NCBI GenBank assembly: GCA_964023275.1
Contig: OZ029914.1
Coordinates: 31,689,351 to 31,753,350 of the forward strand
DNA: 64,000 nucleotides
Direction of reading: 5' to 3'
Source: Norana najaformis
Lineage: Eukaryota; Annelida; Clitellata; Crassiclitellata; Hormogastridae
Shown here: positions 1 to 50,314 of the stretch, piece after piece
How the letters are laid out: the number at the start of each line of letters is the position of its first letter
How positions within the stretch are numbered: the stretch's first letter is position 1
Program-made: the position numbers and the translations under genes
Notes under the pieces: model-generated
Databases searched by the model: none
Seen by the model: the letters and a program-made list of their open reading frames with translations, nothing else
What the model was told of the DNA's origin: nothing

Positions 1-390
1 GGTCAGTCTGTTATCGTCATCGTCGTCGTCATCATCATCATCATCGTCGTCATCATTATCGAGACCACACCTCCACCACACCGTGCGCCATCGTTGCTAC
101 CACCAAAAACACTACCACCACCAATACTACCACCACCGCCGCACCATCATCATTAACAACATAATCGTCATTGTCATCATCATGAGCATTACCAATTACC
201 AACAGCAATAACAACCACATCCATCGGCTCAGACCGCACGGATTGGACACCGTTCTATTCGGCGTTTCACAGAAGCACATTTTCAATGTTCATCATCATC
301 ATCATCATCATCATTATCACCACCACAACCATAAACCATGGGCTCAACGCCCGTAGGGTTATTTTGAGTGTTGCGAACTGTTAATTGTAG
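1..390. other. Intronic sequence upstream of the first visible lipoxygenase exon
   Basis: GTC/ATC triplet runs lie at about 1-60 and 286-318, and CCA-rich imperfect repeats lie between them. The stretch ends in a good splice acceptor (pyrimidine-containing tract, then TTGTAG at 385-390) feeding the exon at 391. I see no exon in it. The ORFs on either strand are low-complexity Asp/Val/Pro products of the triplet repeats. Confidence 0.7.
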
Positions 391-3300
391 GCGATCAACC
401 GGCGATCATCCCTCTGGCGATTCAACTGAACGAAGCTCAGACGCCATCTGGCGGTGAGCCTCTCATCTTCACGAAACGCGACGACATCGGAACCTACTCG
501 GACTGGATGGTGGCCAAGATGTGGGTGCGGGTGGCAGCCACGAACGCCCAGATAATCGGTTCCAACATCTCCAACCATCTGATAATGGAGCCCGTGGCAC
601 TGGCTCTCCTCCGCAACCTACCGGCCGTTCACCCGGTCCACAAGCTGCTTGTCCAACACCTCAAGGACATCGTCGCCATCAACGCCATCTATCGACAGCA
701 CGTGTTGCCGGTAGATGGTGCTCTGGCTGAGGTCCTTGCGATCGCCAAGGGAATCCACCTTCAGTACATGGCGAAACTAATCGGCGAATTCAACTTCAAC
801 TCCTTCGATGGCGAAAGGACGCTACGTCGACGCAAACTACTCACCGATGACGACATCCTACCAGGTGAGAGTTTTAATTGGAAGCAGATGAGCATTTTAT
901 TGGCTTAGTTTTAACCAGGCGAGAAATATAATTAGAACTAGGTGAGAATTATAATCATAGGTATAACCAGCTTAGACTTATAATTATGACCAGGTAAGAA
1001 TTATAATTATACCCAGGTAACAATTATAACTTTATAATATATATATATATATATATGATCGAATGGGAGTAATATGATCAAACCTGGATATGAATAAAGA
1101 ATTAAGTTAAATATATTGCAGATCTGGTATACAGAAATAATTTTTCCGCATTAGCAGTTATGAAAAGGCCAAGAGAATTAACTTACAGAAATCACTGAAG
1201 CAAATTAATTAATTAAGATAAGTTTAATAAAGACTGTTACAGGCAACCTTAGTTGGTTCGTTGGTCGACATTCTCGTGATGTGCAGGGTCTCCCATCATT
1301 TTACAGGATAGCTAAGATGAAACTGCTTTACAATCTGAGTAAATCTTCCTGAGTTCCTCTGAGTTAAGATTACTTGTGGTTGAAACTAAAACTGAATATA
1401 GCCATAGCTAATTATAGCTATGTTAATAGTCTTCTCACTGCCACTAAGTAACAGGTGACCCTAAGTAAGCGGAACTTCTGTTCCTTCTGGGTATGCCTTT
1501 TGCATCCTTGTCAATTGTATATGCTTGTAACATGTATCGTTTTTTTGAATTGGGATCAATAAACGAGATGAATGAATGAATGAATCTGTGAGCCTGAGGT
1601 AAGTTCCGCATGAATGCTCAGATTTAAAAATTATGCGAGTATGATCTTGATCTCAGAATGTCAGAGAGAAGGGTGACACCTGTTTCAGGCTACTGGCTGC
1701 GAGACGACCTGTTGCGTCACTGGGCGGCAATCAAGGACTTTGTTTCCGAGATCATCGGCGTCTACTATAAGACAGACTCTGATGTGGCGTCGGATCCAGA
1801 ACTCAAGAACTTCACTGAGGACCTGCGTCAGAATGGTGGACTGCCTTCGGTCGTAAGTGCAACGATGACTATGATGACAACGACAGAGAAGAAGATGACT
1901 CTGACCAATGACGAAGACGACAACGAAAATGATGATAATGATGATGGCGACACTGAAGACGATAATGGAAGATCCTTATTGCAGTGGAATCTGAAGATCC
2001 CAAGTCCAAGACTTCATTCAGCGAGACGGTTATGACGACTATGTTGCAGTGTCTTTACGGCGACCATGAAGATACATGTCATTGTACATGTTTTTCTATA
2101 GCTACTATATGGGTTCGACCCTGCTCATTTTTCAATGAATTGATTGGGTGAGAACCTTGACCACCGCTGCTCGTCTGAATGGGCATCACACCATTTAAAC
2201 CCCGTGCATGGACCGTGCTAATCTCTTAACTATCCCTGCTATTGATATGCGAACAGGCATTCTCACGCACAGAGGCGCCTTGACGTACGCTTCAACCAAT
2301 GTAGCTAACCAGGCAGCGTAGTAGCTGGTTTTATCTGAAGAAAATCGTAAAATTACCTTTTGAGCAAAATTTAAATAATGATACCGATGCCTATTAATTA
2401 GACCTTATTGATAATAATGATAATGCTTGATTATTGTAAGGGCGACTTGTAAGTCCAACAACTGCTGTGATGAAAATAATAGCAGTCGTAGACTCGTATG
2501 TGATCATCTTTCATTCTTCCTCGAAAAGGGATAAGTAAGAATTCATTTTGAAGACAAACTTGAATGTTTGTTGTAGGTTTCACCTGAGACCATTGATGAA
2601 TTGATCCAGTTCGTAGCTACCGTAATTTACACGTGAGATTCATAGTCGTTGTCTTACTTGCTTAGGCTCAGAAATGTAATGTAATGTCAACTAGCAGCAG
2701 CAGCATCTGATATTTCTTTACCATTTCCATTGATCAAATCTTCGTCTGTCTTTCCCCACGCAGCAATTTAAAATATGTGCCCTAGTATACCTCGTGTGTG
2801 AGACCCTCATGCTGAAGACCGAACGGAATCTAGAACCCAGTCTGTGCTCAATTGATTCAAGGCACATACGAAAATGTGCTCTATTGATTCAAGGCACATA
2901 AGAATGAGGAATTTCTAGTAGGTCTACTGCTTGGTACAAAACTCTTTTTACAGGGATAAACTTTTATCCCGAAATATTCTAAGCAACCCAGAGAGAAGAA
3001 TCATAAGTTTAGCTTTTACTAAGAATAATTGATTTGAATTAGTAATTGTGTTATATGTAAGCCTATGATGAATCAAAGGCCTATGCTATGTAAAATAAAG
3101 GATGCTTAATTAGGCAAGAGTAGGCCTACATGATACAACTTATGACCTTGTACAAGTTGTATATATATATTATATGTACATTTGTATGAATGTATGTTTG
3201 TATTTATGTATGTATATATAGGCCTATGTATGTATGTGTACGTGTGTATGTCTTTGCTGGTTGTATAGGCATATTGAATAACATACCAGTTTCAGGTTAA

Positions 3301-4030
3301 ACTGGTTTTATTGCCTAAGCTATCTACAAGCGAAACAGAACTCCTAAATTAACAAAACGTCGGCCTCAAAGGGCGAGAAAACCAGCAGAAATCTCGTGAA
3401 GAGAAACGATGTTCACCAAGAGTCGGTAACGAAAAACGGCTCAGAAAGAACCAAAACGACCCCGAAAACCAAGCAAGTCATCCACTCAGGAAGACTAAAC
3501 ACGAATTTTCGAGAGAGACTGGCAACAACACGACCACGCAGGATCAATCTAAAATCCAGTCTGAACAAAATTAAGCACAATACCTCTATGTACTGTCGGA
3601 TTTCCCACCAAAATGTATAGAAGGCGTGAAACGTACGAGCCTGTCTTTAGCAGTGTGTGTTTATGCATATATATCTGGTTATTTATACTGTGCCTTTTAA
3701 ATAAACCTCACAAAGGGGTTAATTAGTATGAGTTTGTCTGATTCAGCGTGCGTCTATAATGGGCATCTGTGTGTTGTAGGTGTACCTCCCACCAGGCGGC
3801 GGTCAGTCGAGGCCTTCTGGACACGTTCGCCTACTGCCCCAACTCACCGCCTTGCATGATGAAACCACCGCCGACGGCCAGACACCCCAAGGGATACACG
3901 GAGCAAGAGATGAAGGATATGCTGCCCAATCCAGATCATGTCGAACGATTCATCGGATTCGTTATGTTGCTCTTCGGAGGATACAAACCAGCTGAGGTAT
4001 ACTGACCGCAGTCGTCGTTATCATCGTCGA

Positions 4031-4120
<90 letters not shown>

Positions 4121-4651
4121 AGTTGTCGTCATGAGCACCTTCACCGTTACCATATATTAGAGTCGTTAAATGAGTACACACTTAAGAAGCGTCAAACACC
4201 TGCAAGCTGTGGCTTATTGTCAGACATTTAGGGTAAGGCTGTACATTGACACCAGTTTACTAAAGCCATATTGGCTATAATATACCAAAATGCCTGATAA
4301 TAATGAAAAAGCTTATTTAATTATGCGGATTCTTACCCTCTATTCACACAACCCTTAGTAGCTTTATTAATTAATAACAGCAAATATAGTCTAATTAAGT
4401 AAGAGTTGGCTTTAATTCAGTCGAATGCCTTACGCGTACCTCTTATGTACAATTTTCTTCTTCATTTCCAGGTTGCCCTCGGAAGTTATCCAGATCGATA
4501 TTTTTCGGAAGCACCGTGCCTGATTGCCATCGAGAACTTCCGTCAGAGACTGCGTCAGGTGTCGGAGGACATTCGACTGCGCAATGCGAACATCGACTGT
4601 CCCTTCGAGTACCTTCTACCGAACAAGGTCCACCAGTGTTTCACCGTCTGA
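391..4651 (+). CDS. Lipoxygenase-like protein lacking all iron ligands (3' five exons; 5' end off window)
   Basis: Exons are 391-864, 1689-1852, 2577-2632, 3780-3996 and 4472-4651 (stop TGA). All junctions are GT-AG with matching phases, giving 362 codons. The protein aligns end to end with the catalytic domain of animal 5-lipoxygenase-type enzymes: an AKMWVR helix, RNLPAVHPVHKLL, RDDLLRHW, DPELKNF, then PNSPPCMMKPPPTA and a C-terminal exon starting VALGSYPDRYF. Active lipoxygenases bind non-haem iron through His-x4-His, a later His, an Asn or His four residues on, and the C-terminal Ile. Here the first helix reads ATNAQIIGSNISNHL, with no His at either position and one residue deleted. The later segment reads SHQAAVSRG, where His-Ala-Ala-Val-Asn is expected, so the His is Gln and the Asn is Ser. 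The protein ends in Val. Dioxygenase activity is therefore unlikely. The open frame argues for a retained non-catalytic role. The N-terminal PLAT domain would lie outside the window. Confidence 0.93.
1480..1585 (+). mobile_element. Possible LINE 3' end with (GAAT)n tail, in a lipoxygenase intron
   Basis: A stretch reading TTGGGATCAATAAACGAG is followed by a run of GAATGAATGAAT. This resembles the 3' terminus of non-LTR retrotransposons, which often end in a short tandem repeat. No coding remnant is visible upstream, so the call is tentative. Confidence 0.4.
2098..2235 (+). mobile_element. Interspersed repeat family B, copy 1 (lipoxygenase intron)
   Basis: It shares a ~140-bp consensus with copies at 18347, 31600 and 33650, and a short reversed copy at 7850. 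The shared core runs from a TATAGC start through TCGACCCTGCTCATTTTTCA, then a GGGTGAGAACCTT-like block, to CCGTGCATGGACCGTGCTA. It has no ORF and no recognised A or B box. It is a short non-autonomous repeat of unknown class. Confidence 0.75.
4031..4120 (+). repeat. Perfect (CAT)30 microsatellite in lipoxygenase intron
   Basis: Thirty uninterrupted CAT units begin 34 bp after the donor site of the fourth visible exon. The poly-His, poly-Met and poly-Asp ORFs over it are artefacts of the triplet repeat. Confidence 0.97.
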
Positions 4652-5484: not shown

Positions 5485-5660
5485 TCGTAATCATAAACTT
5501 GAGATTTCTACAGCGCCAGACGAAAGCTAAGTGAGGGAACAAGATTATTCACAGGCGCTCAGACAAAACAAAATCGATGGACAGGAAGTTCAGATTCGGT
5601 TCCAGGTCAAGATCCAGGACCTTCTGACAGGACGAGGAACTCTCCAGGCAGACAATGAGG
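5485..5660 (-). mobile_element. Interspersed repeat family A, copy 1
   Basis: The plus strand reads a degenerate (CGTAAT) run, GAGATTTCTACAGCGCC, CACAGGCGCTCAGACAAAAC and GGTTCCAGGTCAAGATCCA. This order is shared with eight other copies. The strand call assumes the hexamer run is the 3' tail, as in the LINE end at 59450. It is short and non-coding. Confidence 0.75.
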
Positions 5661-20400: not shown

Positions 20401-23400
20401 ACAGTTGAGACCATCCCGGAACTGATAAGATAAGCACACAGTCTCCTGCCATGTACAGTGGTGCTAGTCTGTGCAAACACTTGAAACCTTGTTAGATAGG
20501 TAACTTATGTTAGTGAGGTGCTAGTCTGTGCAAACACTTGAAACCTTGTTAGATAGGTAACTTATGTTAGTGATCATTGTGTAACGTAGAATGCTTGTTC
20601 CCTGCAATGCAGTCGAATTCAGACATTAATGAGGATAGTAAGCAATAAGATTTCTTGTTTGCTGCTCAACTTCTGTTGTTTTTGTTGCAAATGTTGTCAG
20701 TATGTTGTGGAACGACATGCAGATACTCTGCTGCCTCAGTATCTTGGAATGTATCGCCTGACGGTAAATGATACGGAAACATACCTGGTCGTCATGCGCA
20801 ACGTCTTCAGCTCTCGACTCGCTATTCACAAGAAATATGACCTCAAAGTAATGAATCTGCATTTCTCTGATGGCAGTAGCTATTTACTTGCTTACTGACA
20901 TAATGGATTGTTGACTTCTGCCTGTTGCTTCCTGGTTTGGGATTCAAACCTCATTACGTCATCAAAAGTTGTCAATTTATTATTGAACATACATGGAATG
21001 AATATGTTGGTGTACTTCAGCCAAATGATTCTTAAACGTCTAGCAGACTTTAGATTATGGAGTGGCAAAATTATTAAGAATAACTGCATTCCTTTACAGT
21101 CAAGGGCACAGGACCCACGTTAGCCTTAGCCATCCATCATTCTGCACCATTGGCACATAGCCAGCTTGGGCCTAGTGGCCTTGTCTGTCTGTCTGGATGT
21201 TCCTAGTATGTGTTTTCTGACTAATGCAAAGGGACATTATCAGTTTTTTTTATTCCAGGACCTAAGAATGTAGTAATCTTAAACTGCCTTAATGGTTTTG
21301 TGACTGCTTCTTGAGATCCTTATTGTAATTGTAATTGTGATTGCAAATTTGTGAAGGGAAACTCCTAAGAGAGATTCCAAATGTAGTAGACTGTGTTTTC
21401 TCCATCCTCCCTCTGTCATCACTCTAAATTTCTCTATGTATTCAACTTCACTCTGTTTCTGTAAGATATGGCATTCTCTACTTTATGAATTTGCTTCACT
21501 GACAAATAATATTGTACATTCAAAACCAATCTTTTGATACATGCTTTAGATTTAGACTTCGTAAGAAATTTTAGTGTTTCTTTTCCTGTTTTCAACTATG
21601 AGTTTCTTACTTATGGGCTTCAACTGGACTTTATGAATAAATTAATACAGGCAATTAGATGAGGTTTATGTCACTAAATTAGACTAAACTAAGGCTGGAC
21701 AGCAGCCATTGATTGATTTCTTATGCATTACAATAACAACCTACAGAAGTTTCCGTCATGAGTAGGAGACACGTTGCCACCATGGTTAAATGCTCGTGTG
21801 CCATTTATAAACCTGCTGAGTTTTGCTCTTGAATGGGAAAATTCAGTTTGCTAATGAAATATCTACTCTATTGTTTCTGTCCATTGTTTGGTTGATTATG
21901 AATTGGCAAGGAATAATTTTTTGGTTATCAGAGTTACCGGATAGAACTACTAGCATCTGTGTCATGTGCGAGAACCTTGGTTTGGAAATTTTGAGGGTGA
22001 TTAAGAAGAGTGTGCTATCTTTGCTTCCAGGGTTCAACAGTTGATCGACAAGCAAGCGACAAAGAGAGGGCAAAGGACCTTCCCACATTCAAGGACAATG
22101 ACTTTGTAAGTGATGGGATCACCCTGCAGTTGGAACCAGAGCAGCGTGTTAAGCTCATCAGCACCCTCGAAGCAGACACTGGGGTTGGTTCTGAATGGAA
22201 TGTTTCCTATACATTTTTAGAAATTTATATTATCTAACCTGGAAATTTCTGTAATACCATTGTCATAATACACAAAGCATCAATCAATGGTTGCTTCTAA
22301 GAAAATCACATTCCAAAAGTATAATCCATTGAGTAGAACCAGTTGAGATACATGAGGCCCCTGAGACTGGAATGCAGGTTGTAGAGGATAAGTAAGCAAG
22401 TTTTTCTCACTTTAAGGAACTTAGAACTTGTTATCTGACCTGTGAGAGCCTTGGTAACAGGTGCAATGGCCATCTTTCAGGTTCGTCCTGATGATATTGC
22501 ATATGAGCTGGATTTTTGTGAATCATGCTTAACTGCTTCCTCTGATCGAGGACCTGTTGCTTTACAGTCAGCTGGTGGAGTGGACTTTTTTGCACTTCTT
22601 GATACAGACCATAATGGAGACTTGGGAAATATTTTGAAACTAAGATATTGTCAGTTCCAATCATATTTCACTTGGTTTATATGTGAGCGTTGAAGAGGTG
22701 AAACATTTGGATTTTCTGTTGTGGTTCTGATTGGAAGCTTCATCTGTATTATTGTCACTAGTTAATGACATAAAGCGATTAGATTTTAACAGATTGCAGA
22801 TGCATGTGCTAAGGAGTCATGTTAATCTTTCAGCAAAAACTTTCTGATCTCTTTACCAGCTCTAATCTTGTGATTTGCAGAATTTAGATGCATCATTGAA
22901 TATCCTAAAACTTGTTGCTTGAAACATGAATATTCATACAAACAACATTTAACTTGATTGATAAATTTCTGCCATGAAAACTTGTCTGTAAGTAGTCCTT
23001 TAGGGGGTCAGTTTAGTTAATTAGTTGTTACTGATGTTCTTATGTTTGATTTAATTTTATGAATATTCATTAACAGTGAAGTTATCTAATAAGATAATTA
23101 ATTATTAATTAATAGGATAATTATTAATTAATATACTGTACATTATGCTGCAGTTTCTGGCCAACCTGAATCTGATGGACTACAGTCTGCTGGTTGGCAT
23201 CCACGACTGTGATCGCCCCGACCCGCAGGTCAACGACCCATTTGACAGTGAGGAAAATGGGGTGGATGATGAGGACCCAGAGGAGAATGTGAACAGCGGG
23301 GCTGCTGCTGCTGCTGCTGGCCCCACCCCACCTGATAGCCCAATGGGAGCCTACGAGAGGCAGATGTCTGCTGACGAATTCGACCCGAAACTCGAAGCCT

Positions 23401-24408
23401 TTGCAGTGAAATGTAGCGATCGTAAGCATGCTTTTTGTGTTTGCGTAAACCTTTTTGACATACAGAAAACTTAGTGCTATTGTAAACAGCAGTTTTTGAG
23501 GTACTTTATAGATGCTATAATAAGTGTCTACATAGCTAGTAACTGCCATAATAAGTGTCTACATAGCTAGTAACTAACTAAACTGGATTATGCAGTGACA
23601 GAGTGGTGATATTTTGGTCATTTACCCCAGCACCTGGGGTACAAGTCTGAATGTTTGAACATTTATCTGTTAGAATAATTGTGTTATCCATAAGGTTGTT
23701 TGTTAGATTACAGAACCCAACCTTGGAGTACTTGGTGAGTAAGGCATGTAATTAACAATTACTGTACTTTACCCTTTGAACCCAGTGCAAAATTTTAAAA
23801 TAACAGTTTAATAATCATAGTCAAGGCTCATTTGAATTGGCAATCACCCTTCTTCACCATTCCTTTTTGCATTTTCTGTTTCAGGATAGTTTAGGCCTTT
23901 AACGCTTTTGATAGAAATGTTTTATTTTAGTTTTGGTCTTTCTGGTACTGGCATTTCATGAGATGGTCTGTCAGTTGTCAGTTTTAACTTATTTAAGTGT
24001 TATTACGTCAGAACTATGTTAGATTTAGAAGTAATGGTTAGTAGGGTCTGTTGATCTCCAGTTTTCATTGATGCAGGTTTGCAAGTTGAATTATGCAATT
24101 GACATCTGGGTGGATCTGATCATGCTGATGTTACTTAATTTATCATTGCCTAATAAGGTCATAATAGTTGTAATTATGATGTGAAAATGCTAATAAATAA
24201 AATGATTTGGACTTACATTACAGAATGCGGAAAGCAGGAGATCTACTTTATGGCCCTCATCGATATCCTGACTCATTATGGAGTTAAGAAGCGTACGGCA
24301 CAGGCTGCAAAGACCGTTAAACATGGTGCCGGTGCCGAGATATCTACTGTGAAGCCAGACCAGTATGCCCGGCGGTTTATGGAGTTCATTGACCGAGTCA
24401 TCAAATAG
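8485..24408 (+). CDS. PIP4K2: Phosphatidylinositol-5-phosphate 4-kinase type 2 (407 aa, 8 exons)
   Basis: Exons are 8485-8607, 8928-9025, 16568-16664, 19610-19762, 20701-20847, 22031-22183, 23154-23421 and 24224-24408; phases agree throughout. The enzyme phosphorylates PI5P at the 4-position to make PI(4,5)P2. The ATG at 8485 gives a basic N-terminus ([13 protein letters not shown]) followed by [12 protein letters not shown]. Length (407 aa) matches the vertebrate enzymes (about 406). Visible hallmarks are the [10 protein letters not shown] helix, [28 protein letters not shown], catalytic-loop [11 protein letters not shown] (residues 265-275), an acidic insert with six alanines and TPPDSP (315-320), and [12 protein letters not shown] in the activation segment, which marks the type 2 class rather than PIP5K. 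The nucleotide-site motif is MRNVF (189-193). The exon 4 donor is GC, the exon 2 donor GTCAGT and the exon 6 donor GTTGGT, all weaker than consensus. Whether this is the only PIP4K gene of the organism cannot be seen. Confidence 0.97.
9685..10330 (-). mobile_element. LINE 3' remnant in PIP4K2 intron 2
   Basis: On the minus strand, about 10166-10290 encodes [19 protein letters not shown], continuing to LFKAHLKRH. This is the typical C-terminal block of LINE reverse transcriptases (usually PxLWNxLP...FKxxLK), with the Trp codon mutated to TGA. Downstream is a short 3' region holding the 87-bp tandem repeat, then TTCAATAAACAATTTGACTG and a GATT-rich tail near 9690. Confidence 0.7.
9785..10046 (+). 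repeat. 87-bp tandem repeat, 3 copies
   Basis: Three near-identical units start with GTCAAAGGGCAATCCAGAAG at 9791, 9878 and 9965 (period 87). They differ at a few positions only, so the expansion is recent. They lie in the 3' part of the LINE remnant. Confidence 0.93.
12815..13100 (+). mobile_element. tRNA-derived SINE in PIP4K2 intron 2 (sense copy)
   Basis: It has a tRNA-like head with A box TAGTCTAGTGG and B box GGTTCAAAATCC about 40 bp apart. A body follows (CAGCTCCATCTGCAGCCCAT, then AGCAAA) that also occurs in the SINE at 37393. A downstream block, GATGGGAAGATCAGGTGG, recurs reversed in the neighbouring copy. The apparent ORF here is not a gene. Confidence 0.8.
13270..13490 (-). mobile_element. 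tRNA-derived SINE, reversed partner of the copy at 12815
   Basis: Read on the minus strand from 13490, it has an A-box-like CAGCCTAGTGG and B box GGTTCAAATTCC, then a diverged body and GATGGGAAGATCAGG, followed by TGGCAGGGGAGGA. With the first copy it forms an inverted pair separated by about 170 bp within one intron. Confidence 0.72.
18347..18440 (+). mobile_element. Interspersed repeat family B, copy 2 (PIP4K2 intron 3)
   Basis: It reads TAGCGACCGTGTAGCCTCGA, then CCCTGCTCATATTGCAATGA and a GGTGAGGTCTTTCA block, colinear with the copies at 2098, 31600 and 33650. The 3' half has decayed. Confidence 0.7.
19761..19768 (+). other. Non-canonical GC splice donor of PIP4K2 intron 4
   Basis: Exon 4 must end in phase 0 after YHQ, because exon 5 (acceptor AG at 20699-20700) resumes with [13 protein letters not shown] in phase 0, exactly as in vertebrate PIP4K2. 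The bases at the boundary are CAG/GCATGT. No GT within reach preserves both frame and family alignment. GC-AG introns are a known minor class with a strong AG before the cut, as here. Confidence 0.85.
20460..20573 (+). repeat. 57-bp tandem duplication in PIP4K2 intron 4
   Basis: Two essentially identical copies of a unit beginning GTGCTAGTCTGTGCAAACAC lie at 20460 and 20517. Confidence 0.92.
23497..23575 (+). repeat. About 33-bp direct duplication in PIP4K2 intron 7
   Basis: The phrase ATAATAAGTGTCTACATAGC followed by TAGTAACT occurs twice in a row just after exon 7. Confidence 0.85.
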
Positions 24409-34444: not shown

Positions 34445-34515
34445 GCGAGATTGCGTAGAACGAATGTGAAGTTTTCTTAAATAGCTGTAGCTAGTGTGTG
34501 AGATTTAATTTTGAA

Positions 34516-36188
34516 ATGAATAGGCGAGGCTGTGTTAACCATCCAGACAATTTTTGCTATGTTTGTGGTAAATATACTCTTTGTGACCAGCGCAAGAAGT
34601 TAACTAAGAGAGTGATGATTGCTTACAAGTATTATTTTGGATGTCAAATCGGAGACGAGGATAAAAGTTGGGCACCTCATGTCTGCTGCACCGTGTGCTA
34701 CTCTGGGCTTACACAGTGGCTGAATGGCAAAAGGAATTCAATGCCGTTTGCTGTGCCTATGGTGTGGCGCGAGCCAAGAAATCATCATGCAGACTGTTAT
34801 TTCTGCATTACTAAAGTTGCTGGATTTTCGAAGAAAAATAAGTCTAAAATCGTTTATCCTGATTGCGAGTCCGCTCTAAAGCAAGTGCCGCATGATGAAG
34901 AGAATCCAGTACCATTTCCGCCTGCTGCGGGTGCTGATGAAACGGACAGTTCTGATGGTAATACAGAAGATGACGTTACTGTTTATGAATCCAGTGATCA
35001 AGATTTGGAAGAGGGTAGGCCGCATTTGATAAGGCAAGGTGAGTTAGATGATCTGGTGAGGGATCTATCTTTGTCAAAGGAGAAATCTGAACTGTTAGCC
35101 TCCAGACTACGGGAGTGGAACTTGCTTCAAAAAGGTACCACAACATCACACTTCCGTTATCGTCACAAACAGTTAGCTACATATTACAAACTGGAAAATG
35201 AGATCTGTTTCTGTACTGACGTGAACGGTCTCATGCTGAATTTAGGTTGCGATTACGTTCCTGATCAGTGGAGACTGTTCATAGATTCCAGCCAAGCGAG
35301 CTTGGAAGCTGTGTTGGTGCACAATGGTAACGAAAAGCCGTCTGTTCCTGTAGCCCACGCTGTAGGACTCAAAGAGACATATGATTCAATGAAACTCATT
35401 TTGAAAGTGATCAACTAATCAGACCACAAATGGAACATCTGTGCGGACCTCAAAGTGGTAGCACTTATTCTAGGCCTACAGCGGGGTACACAAAACATAT
35501 GTGCTTTTTGTGCTTGTGTAACAGTCGTGAGGACAGCAACCATCACAAAGTGAAACTGTGGCCTCCTAGATCTGAGCACATTGTTGGTCGGCACAACGTG
35601 CAACACGAACCATTGGTTCATCCATTGAAAGTGTACTTACCACCACGTCACATTAAACTGGGCCTCATGAGGAATTTCGTAGTGGCAATGGATCGTACTG
35701 GACAAGGCTTCCAGTATCTGAGAGATAAATTTGGAGCCGTCAAAACTGATGCTAAGCTGAAGGCTGGAATTTTTATTGGGCCAGAAATCCGCGAACTAAT
35801 GCATGATACTGTATTTAGAACCAAGCTCAACCCACTGGAATTTGCCGCTTGGATTTCATGTACGTTGGCGGTGCAAAACTTCCTTGGGAATCACCGAGCT
35901 GAGAACTATGCTGAACTCGTTAGCAACATGCTAACAGCATATAAGCAACTCGGCTGCCGGATGTCACTAAAAACACATTTCTTACATTCCCATCTGGATT
36001 TTTTCCCACCAAACTTGGGTGATGTAAGCGATGAGCATGGAGAGAGATTCCATCAAAACATCTCCACCTTTGAAGCAAGATATCAGGGCCACTGCAATTC
36101 CAACATGATGGGCGATTACTGCTGGTTTCTGCAGCGGGCAACAGCGGCCACTCACAAGCGCAAGAGCAAGTGTCTAAAACACTTTTGA
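34516..36188 (+). pseudogene. Zinc-finger-type putative transposase or element-encoded protein, broken (about 555 codons)
   Basis: The ATG at 34516 opens MNRRGCVNHPDNFCYVCGKY. A clean frame runs to TAA at 35416-35418 (LKVIN*), continues in the same frame as SDHKWNICADLKVVALILGL, then shifts near 35480 into the frame of YTKHMCFLCLCNSRED, which is open to TGA at 36188. So one stop and one frameshift interrupt an otherwise continuous protein. The N-terminus has Cys/His pairs like zinc knuckles (CYVC, CCTVC, HHADCYFC). The middle is acidic, then comes a leucine-rich helix. Acidic residues in WRLFIDSS, CADLK and EHGERFHQ could form a DDE/D-type triad, but this is inference. From memory, similar uncharacterised proteins are multicopy in many invertebrate genomes; no search was possible. 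No host function should be assigned. Confidence 0.8.
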
Positions 36189-48760: not shown

Positions 48761-50026
48761 CTACATCCCTGACTCAGTGATCGTCACCCTTCCTCCATTC
48801 GTCGTGTGATTGTTGACGCAGAACCTGCTTCCGTACCACTGCTCGGCGCTGTCCTTGCGCTCCAGGTAGCGCTGGCATAGCAGGACGTCGCGACACGTCT
48901 GCCGGAAGTGAACGTTGACGATGCAGTAGAGGACGAAGTTGACGGCGAAGTTGATGAGCTGAAGAAAGTTGAAGACGTCCGTTGACGTCTTGAAGACGAC
49001 GAAACCGGAACTGGACGCGACGTGCTGGCGGAAAAAGGTGAGGATCTCCGACGGAGCGACAAGTAGGATGAAGAGTACGATGAGGCTGATCAGTGTCGGC
49101 GTGATACGGTGCCGCGACTCCTTGCGTGACGCGCGGGAGGCCACCGGAGCCATGTTCTTGTGCAGCTGATGAGAGCGTTGAAGGGCGCGCACGAGGCAGA
49201 CGTTACACCCGGTCAGGATGATGAGTGGTACGAAGATTCCGACGACCGAAGTGACGATGCTGTAGGCGATGACGAAGTTCTTGTCATTGTACAGGGCGCC
49301 GATCTCCTTGACGTGGTAGAAGCAGGGACACTGCACGGGGCTCGGCGGAGTTGCCGGCGTTATTCCCGACTCGTTGCACGGGTGGCGAGCAGGTACGTAG
49401 TGCCAGAAGCGTGGAAGGTTCAGGATGAGTGACCCGATGAAGTCGCCAATCAGGGCGGCCCTGGTTCCACGGAGACTGATGAAGCCCCGTGCATGCATCG
49501 GTCGGCAGACTGCCAGGTAACGGCTGAGAGCCATCGTCACCGTCAGCCAGGTGCTGCTCAGCAGGAAGATGTTTAGCATCGGCTCCTGGTACGTGTAGAA
49601 GTAGAGTCCGAACAGCCAGTCTTTGCTCGAGTAAGCGACGCGGCTCCTAACCGACGATGCTAACAGGTAACAGATGCACACCATCATGTCGGACACGGCC
49701 AGGGCAACCAGACCCATCTGAGCGGACTTTTCCATGTGGTCCATAGAGCGCTGTAACCGCTTCCGGGTCAAGACGATCAGGTTCAAGAGGTTGCCGATGA
49801 TGCCAAAGGCGCTGACCAACGGAACGCCGACTGTGTTGATGGCGCTCTCCAGTTGGTCCGGATTGTCTGCCTCGGCTGCGTTCAAGGCGTCAAGGGCTCG
49901 AGTGATGTTGTCCAGGTATTCGTCGCATATCACGTGACTGGGAGGGAGTGACGTCATCGTGTCCTCGAGAAATGTCTCATCGCTGGTGATCGATTCAAAC
50001 TGCCACATCTGCAGAAAGAGCGTCAA
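48761..50026 (-). CDS. Class A GPCR, FMRFamide/neuropeptide-receptor-like (421 aa, intronless)
   Basis: Seven hydrophobic segments are visible: TM1 about 65-86 with GNLLNL, TM2 104-125 with LAVSD, TM3 149-173, TM4 188-206, TM5 252-276, TM6 310-332 and TM7 350-371. TM7 ends AVNFVLYCIVNVHFRQTC, resembling the (S/A)VNFxIYC end of FMRFamide and myosuppressin receptors. So it probably senses a neuropeptide and signals through a G protein at the plasma membrane. DNITR (39-43) is an extracellular N-glycosylation site. Unusual points: the DRY motif is SRY (168-170), NPxxY is NFVLY (363-367), TM6 lacks the CWxP Cys-Trp (LLVAP), and no Cys is seen at the usual TM3 start. The first ATG (M1) is assumed. 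M7 is also possible, because it directly follows a TTTCTGCAG acceptor-like sequence that could join an untranslated exon. It has no close neighbour gene. Confidence 0.9.
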   Translation of the reverse strand: MTLFLQMWQFESITSDETFLEDTMTSLPPSHVICDEYLDNITRALDALNAAEADNPDQLESAINTVGVPLVSAFGIIGNLLNLIVLTRKRLQRSMDHMEKSAQMGLVALAVSDMMVCICYLLASSVRSRVAYSSKDWLFGLYFYTYQEPMLNIFLLSSTWLTVTMALSRYLAVCRPMHARGFISLRGTRAALIGDFIGSLILNLPRFWHYVPARHPCNESGITPATPPSPVQCPCFYHVKEIGALYNDKNFVIAYSIVTSVVGIFVPLIILTGCNVCLVRALQRSHQLHKNMAPVASRASRKESRHRITPTLISLIVLFILLVAPSEILTFFRQHVASSSGFVVFKTSTDVFNFLQLINFAVNFVLYCIVNVHFRQTCRDVLLCQRYLERKDSAEQWYGSRFCVNNHTTNGGRVTITESGM

Positions 50027-50314
50027 AGGTCATGGTTACACCATTAAACGAAATCAAAGGTCATATCCCCTTCATCTGAGTTTTGGAAGCCAGTGCAAAG
50101 AACGGGGAACAGGTGTGTCACTTGGAGCATACTCTGCCCTAAACTTAGATGGGACCCCGGCCGGCTTGGCCACTACTTTCGCTATTTCTAATCCTGACCC
50201 ATGAATCCCGCCCATTGTGTAGACATTTATGTGTTCCTGAACGCTCATACAGATAAGATTTTCTAGTTTATTAATTGTACAAAGTCCAGTACATTAACAG
50301 TTTATCACCCTGTC

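Follow-up and report, generated by a model that had tools for sequence, protein, structure and literature searches.

The genome of the annelid Norana najaformis carries a lipoxygenase gene that has probably been retained as a pseudo-enzyme. Two of the three fixed histidines of the lipoxygenase iron site are lost, and the PLAT domain and lipoxygenase fold would have been kept for a role other than oxygenation. The gene lies at the start of the window, i.e., the 64,000-nucleotide stretch of DNA analyzed here (C2:31689351–31753350 in a 608-Mb assembly of 17 contigs). An earlier note on this DNA had proposed a retained pseudo-enzyme with every iron ligand replaced. Retention is still the best reading, with seven exons outside the window intact and conservation outside the metal site equal to that of the paralogues, but the list of lost ligands was wrong at the place of 5-LOX H372 and made too much of a serine and a valine.

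Gene structure and family membership

GT–AG introns and matching phases join five open exons on the plus strand between positions 391 and 4651 of the window, giving a product of 362 amino acids and bearing out what had been read from the letters alone. The GC content of these exons is 41–57%, compared with 34–40% in the introns. The lipoxygenase family profile PF00305 matches the product at 3.1e-34, far above chance, and a scan against NCBIfam gave no match. In phmmer searches the top matches among solved structures are coral 11R-LOX (3vf1, 8.4e-56) and human 5-LOX (3v92, 1.5e-55), and the catalytic half has 33–36% identity to solved animal PLAT-lipoxygenases.

Seven further exons, open and in phase, lie upstream within approximately 6 kb of the window. 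They were identified by querying the upstream 10 kb by tblastn with human lipoxygenase N termini, which returned PLAT and catalytic-domain pieces, and by reading the splice sites (Table 1). The gene has at least 12 exons, of which the window carries the last 5. Joined together, the 12 exons form a frame of 866 codons with its sole stop at the end (708 codons when counted from the start of the PLAT domain). Candidate start methionine codons are found at L020:4239, 4257, and 4620, and more exons farther upstream are possible. From the first methionine of the open stretch, the joined protein matches both PLAT (PF01477, 9e-14) and lipoxygenase (PF00305, 3.9e-42). With a catalytic-domain profile match and an N-terminal PLAT domain both present, the gene belongs to the lipoxygenases by descent. 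Premature stops, frameshifts, and damaged splice sites, the usual marks of a pseudogene, are absent from all 12 exons. Broken exons outside the window had been named beforehand as grounds for giving up the idea of retention, and none of the seven found is broken.

Table 1. Exons, ligand positions, and paralogues. Plain numbers are window positions; L020 is the upstream 10 kb, in which L020:10000 is window position 1. Residue numbers of 5-LOX are 3o8y chain numbers less 18.
Feature	Location	Strand	Evidence and remarks
Upstream exon N1	ends L020:4782	+	tblastn, splice sites
Upstream exon 2	L020:5341-5610	+	tblastn, splice sites
Upstream exon 3	L020:6481-6717	+	tblastn, splice sites
Upstream exon 4	L020:7358-7518	+	tblastn, splice sites
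Upstream exon 5	L020:8320-8445	+	tblastn, splice sites
Upstream exon 6	L020:9034-9103	+	tblastn, splice sites
Upstream exon 7	L020:9908-10000 (last base is window 1..1)	+	tblastn, splice sites
Exon with His-x4-His helix region	391..864	+	open frame, AG/GT, PF00305
Exon	1689..1852	+	open frame, GT-AG; tblastn
Exon	2577..2632	+	open frame, GT-AG
Exon with third-His helix	3780..3996	+	open frame, GT-AG; tblastn
Last exon, including stop codon	4472..4651	+	open frame
Ser57-Asn58, place of 5-LOX H367	561..566	+	Ser57 by phmmer, Asn58 by MAFFT; first fixed His lost
His62, place of 5-LOX H372	576..578	+	phmmer and MAFFT; second fixed His kept
His235-Gln236, against Gln549-His550 in 5-LOX	3790..3795	+	third fixed His lost
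Ser240, fourth ligand position (5-LOX N554)	3805..3807	+	alignment; residue also in human ALOX15B
Val362, C-terminal residue	4646..4648	+	conservative change from Ile
Paralogue gA	C6, 33.09 Mb (L021)		PF00305 search
Paralogue gB	C6, 29.92 Mb (L024)		PF00305 search
Paralogue gD	C4, 40.44 Mb (L026)		PF00305 search

Iron-ligand positions

The available part of a review (PMC13059375) describes three histidines as fixed in all lipoxygenases, a fourth ligand that is His, Asn, or Ser, and a C-terminal residue that is Ile or, rarely, Val. According to the accessible text of a 2024 review (PMC11593649), the fourth ligand position of human ALOX15B is occupied by Ser557. By this standard the window gene retains one of the three fixed histidine ligands (H62) where an enzyme should have all of them, while Ser240 and Val362 are among the residues accepted at the fourth position and at the terminal carboxyl. 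H62, found within NHLIMEP, occupies an invariant column of alignment A1, and the gaps placed by tblastn fit this register.

The His-x4-His helix had been described as having no His at either ligand position, which does not hold given that H62 aligns to H372 with both phmmer and MAFFT. The one-residue deletion reported at the same helix was recovered in the phmmer, MAFFT, and tblastn alignments, with slight variation in its exact place. The replacement of the third His by Gln also stands (H550 is Q236 in the alignments). The neighboring His235 occupies the spot where animal enzymes have Gln, and with no compensating gap it is displaced by one residue along the helix. The changes from Asn to Ser and from C-terminal Ile to Val were read correctly as Ser240 and Val362, but counting them as ligand losses went too far, given that both residues occur in active lipoxygenases. 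The statement that every iron ligand is replaced is wrong because H62 is kept and because Ser and Val are known in active members of the family. Judged from the alignments, the ligand positions lost beyond the range of active enzymes are two of five (H367 and H550), not five.

All three fixed histidines are present in 13/13 comparators, namely five animal enzymes with solved structures and eight of the ten bacterial loci identified, the partial L004 and L010 being excluded from this count. The bacterial comparators end in Val (one, L002), Ile (three), or Thr (four). Within the genome, a PF00305 search in which the best candidates were scored found at least four lipoxygenase loci: the window gene and the paralogues gA, gB, and gD. 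Each paralogue retains the three fixed histidines, and among the four loci found the ligand losses occur only in the window gene.

Two other features of the window gene were considered and rejected as special to it. The position of 5-LOX A410 has a role in stereocontrol and is occupied by Ala or Gly in all five animal enzymes with solved structures. The window gene has the bulky Tyr100 there (690..692, plus strand), but the three paralogues have Leu, Met, and Val. The GGGG motif is missing from the window gene and is also missing from gA and gB.

The C termini of two paralogues deserve a separate comment. In the last exon found in gA (L021 near 2950), the frame closes with '...WIPNSQ' and a stop; in that of gB (L024 near 3010), it continues with '...YIPTSQLIHTISVKL' and a stop. 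Both have a possible GTCAGT donor shortly before these ends, and a tiny last exon may hold the C-terminal ligand. A search for this exon in gA and gB gave one unconvincing pattern only.

Constraint and competing explanations

In alignment A1, 74 columns are invariant across the five solved animal lipoxygenases, and the window gene keeps 52 of them. When each solved enzyme is left out in turn, it keeps 74 of 77–88 invariant columns (84–96%). The losses were divided between the metal site, an author-chosen set of 11 columns covering 5-LOX 362–377 and 545–560 and including the ligands themselves, and the rest of the protein. Near the ligands, the window gene keeps 4/11 invariant columns in a larger alignment, compared with 8/11 for gA, 9/10 for gD, and just 6/11 for gB, although the three histidines of gB are intact. 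Elsewhere the counts are 47/63 for the window gene (48/63 in A1), 49/63 for gA, 47/63 for gB, and 26/34 for gD. The window gene and its paralogues are alike outside the site (p 0.86). The difference at the site, 4/11 against 23/32 in the pooled paralogues, is a modest contrast drawn from a small site set (one-sided p 0.042). Within the window protein, site and rest differ with p 0.017 in the larger alignment and 0.013 in A1. As far as aligned residues can indicate in this within-genome comparison, conservation outside the metal site is equal to that of the three paralogues found, and constraint has not been lost over the protein as a whole.

The length of the open frame bears on how long the gene could have drifted. 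When neutral substitution was applied to the 708-codon frame in 1000 runs each, the frame stayed stop-free in 42% of runs at 1% divergence, 9% at 3%, 2% at 5% (where 10% of residues are changed), and 0.1% at 10%. With frameshifts added at an assumed rate of 0.08 per substitution, the frame survives more rarely still. Long neutral drift after the losses is hard to reconcile with the intact frame, whereas a very recent death is compatible with it. In a tree, the window protein is found on its own branch (1.47) without a well-supported partner. This branch looked long (1.33 and 1.48) beside the coral enzymes, but an accelerated branch was rejected, given that comparable depth is seen in gD (1.35) and in the gA/gB pair (0.97 plus 0.24 and 0.60).

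A gene that died recently or came under relaxed selection, and that has not yet accumulated frame-breaking changes, would account for the family-invariant residues lost relative to the left-out active enzymes, and the proportion of frames that survive 1% neutral drift leaves room for it. Such a history is nonetheless unlikely with twelve exons open, splice sites intact, the deletion in frame, and conservation outside the site matching the paralogues; moreover, the change from the His codon of H367 to Ser57 (TCC) needs at least two base changes. Assembly or sequencing error is a far more remote prospect. The losses do rest on one assembly, but that assembly consists of 17 long contigs, and the losses fall in two separate exons, need several base changes, and never break the frame. 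A search of the genome yielded no second copy of the gene, and a search of the window no alternative exon with the histidines.

It is also conceivable, but improbable, that the protein is a metalloenzyme with a rebuilt site, in which H62, the Val carboxylate, Ser240, and either Gln236 or His235 hold iron or another metal for altered chemistry, for example, hydroperoxide conversion instead of oxygenation. H62, the permitted Ser240, and Val362 at the usual C-terminal place are all kept, and His235 adjoins the third ligand position. A precedent for altered chemistry is found within the family in eLOX3, which retains its iron ligands. According to the portion available of PMC13059375, eLOX3 mainly transforms hydroperoxides, and its main role, like that of the proposed window protein, is not ordinary dioxygenation; it differs in being an active hydroperoxide-transforming enzyme. 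The same review counts against a rebuilt site in treating the three histidines as fixed throughout the family, as does the offset of His235 on its helix without a compensating gap. In soybean Lox2, an iron-site change from His to Gln goes with lost activity, and the part of the report available words it as a probable cause with a "may" (PMC10459189). The soybean null allele represents the same kind of change as in the window gene, although it is a single change in a cultivated allele, whereas the window gene has two losses with constraint otherwise kept.

Possible roles and genomic neighborhood

Loss of catalytic residues from a conserved fold is what characterizes a pseudo-enzyme, and the predicted window protein appears to combine the two. 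H62, the permitted Ser, and the terminal Val count against this reading, and some metal binding is possible given these three residues. Without two fixed histidines, the protein is probably unable to hold catalytic iron or to oxygenate fatty acids. Because the rest of the fold stayed under ordinary constraint, the gene would have been kept for a non-oxygenase role, presumably under selection today. The PLAT domain would carry the protein to membranes, and either the old substrate pocket would bind a fatty acyl chain or the protein would bind an active lipoxygenase; in lipoxygenase signaling its most likely role would be that of a sink, a carrier, or a modulator. Retention of the PLAT domain and fold points to membrane targeting along with acyl-chain or lipoxygenase binding, between which the sequence cannot choose, and we infer a lipid-binding or regulatory role. 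The PLAT loop aromatics W13 and W75 of 5-LOX have a membrane role, and neither has an aromatic counterpart by eye in the translated window gene. Because these aromatics appear replaced, membrane binding by the PLAT domain may also be changed.

A broader reading, plausible but held tentatively, is that the gene belongs to a long-standing animal lineage whose members have the lipoxygenase fold but no iron; these proteins would have kept the PLAT domain and fold, abandoned oxygen chemistry, and come to serve as fatty-acid or hydroperoxide sensors, carriers, or partner subunits of active lipoxygenases. Among kinases and proteases, pseudo-enzymes have been studied extensively. No animal lipoxygenase pseudo-enzyme was found in the literature searched, which took in few subscription journals. 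Plant lipoxygenase gene-family surveys, in the parts available, report truncated members and suspected pseudogenes and describe no ligand losses there. Viral contigs scanned with the lipoxygenase alignment gave 42 pattern matches, none of them confirmed. The closest systems for comparison are the animal PLAT-lipoxygenases coral 11R-LOX (3vf1), human 5-LOX (3o8y), and coral 8R-LOX (2fnq), which have in common with the window gene the PLAT and lipoxygenase domains, the second fixed His, and a Val/Ile-type C terminus. Unlike them, the window gene lacks two of the three fixed histidines and has a one-residue deletion at the first. Human ALOX15B (15-LOX-2) shares the Ser at the fourth ligand position, as given in the accessible text of PMC11593649, but it is an active enzyme with its own three histidines present. 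Expression and conservation of the window gene, if borne out, would demonstrate that an animal can make use of the lipoxygenase fold in the absence of its iron site, and the gene would then be a natural means of telling lipid or partner binding apart from catalysis.

The remainder of the window holds several other features. Downstream of the lipoxygenase gene, a phosphatidylinositol 5-phosphate 4-kinase type-2 gene lies on the plus strand from 8485 to approximately 24400, with the end read from open frames only (1bo1, 1.7e-27; PF01504, 3.1e-8 at 23121–23474). On the minus strand, a 421-amino-acid open frame at 48761–50029 encodes a rhodopsin-family receptor (7tm_1, 8.9e-23) whose best solved match is GPR139 (3.8e-10). 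At 34495–36188 on the plus strand, long open frames of 307 and 267 amino acids overlap each other; neither has a Pfam match, and they perhaps derive from a mobile element. A dispersed repeat with the core CGAGATTTCTACAGCGC occurs on both strands at 5500, 5810, 7999, 32983, 39229, 39767, 43046, and 47445; these 8 matches in the window, with three or fewer mismatches, compare with 0.10 expected, and the repeat is perhaps a SINE.
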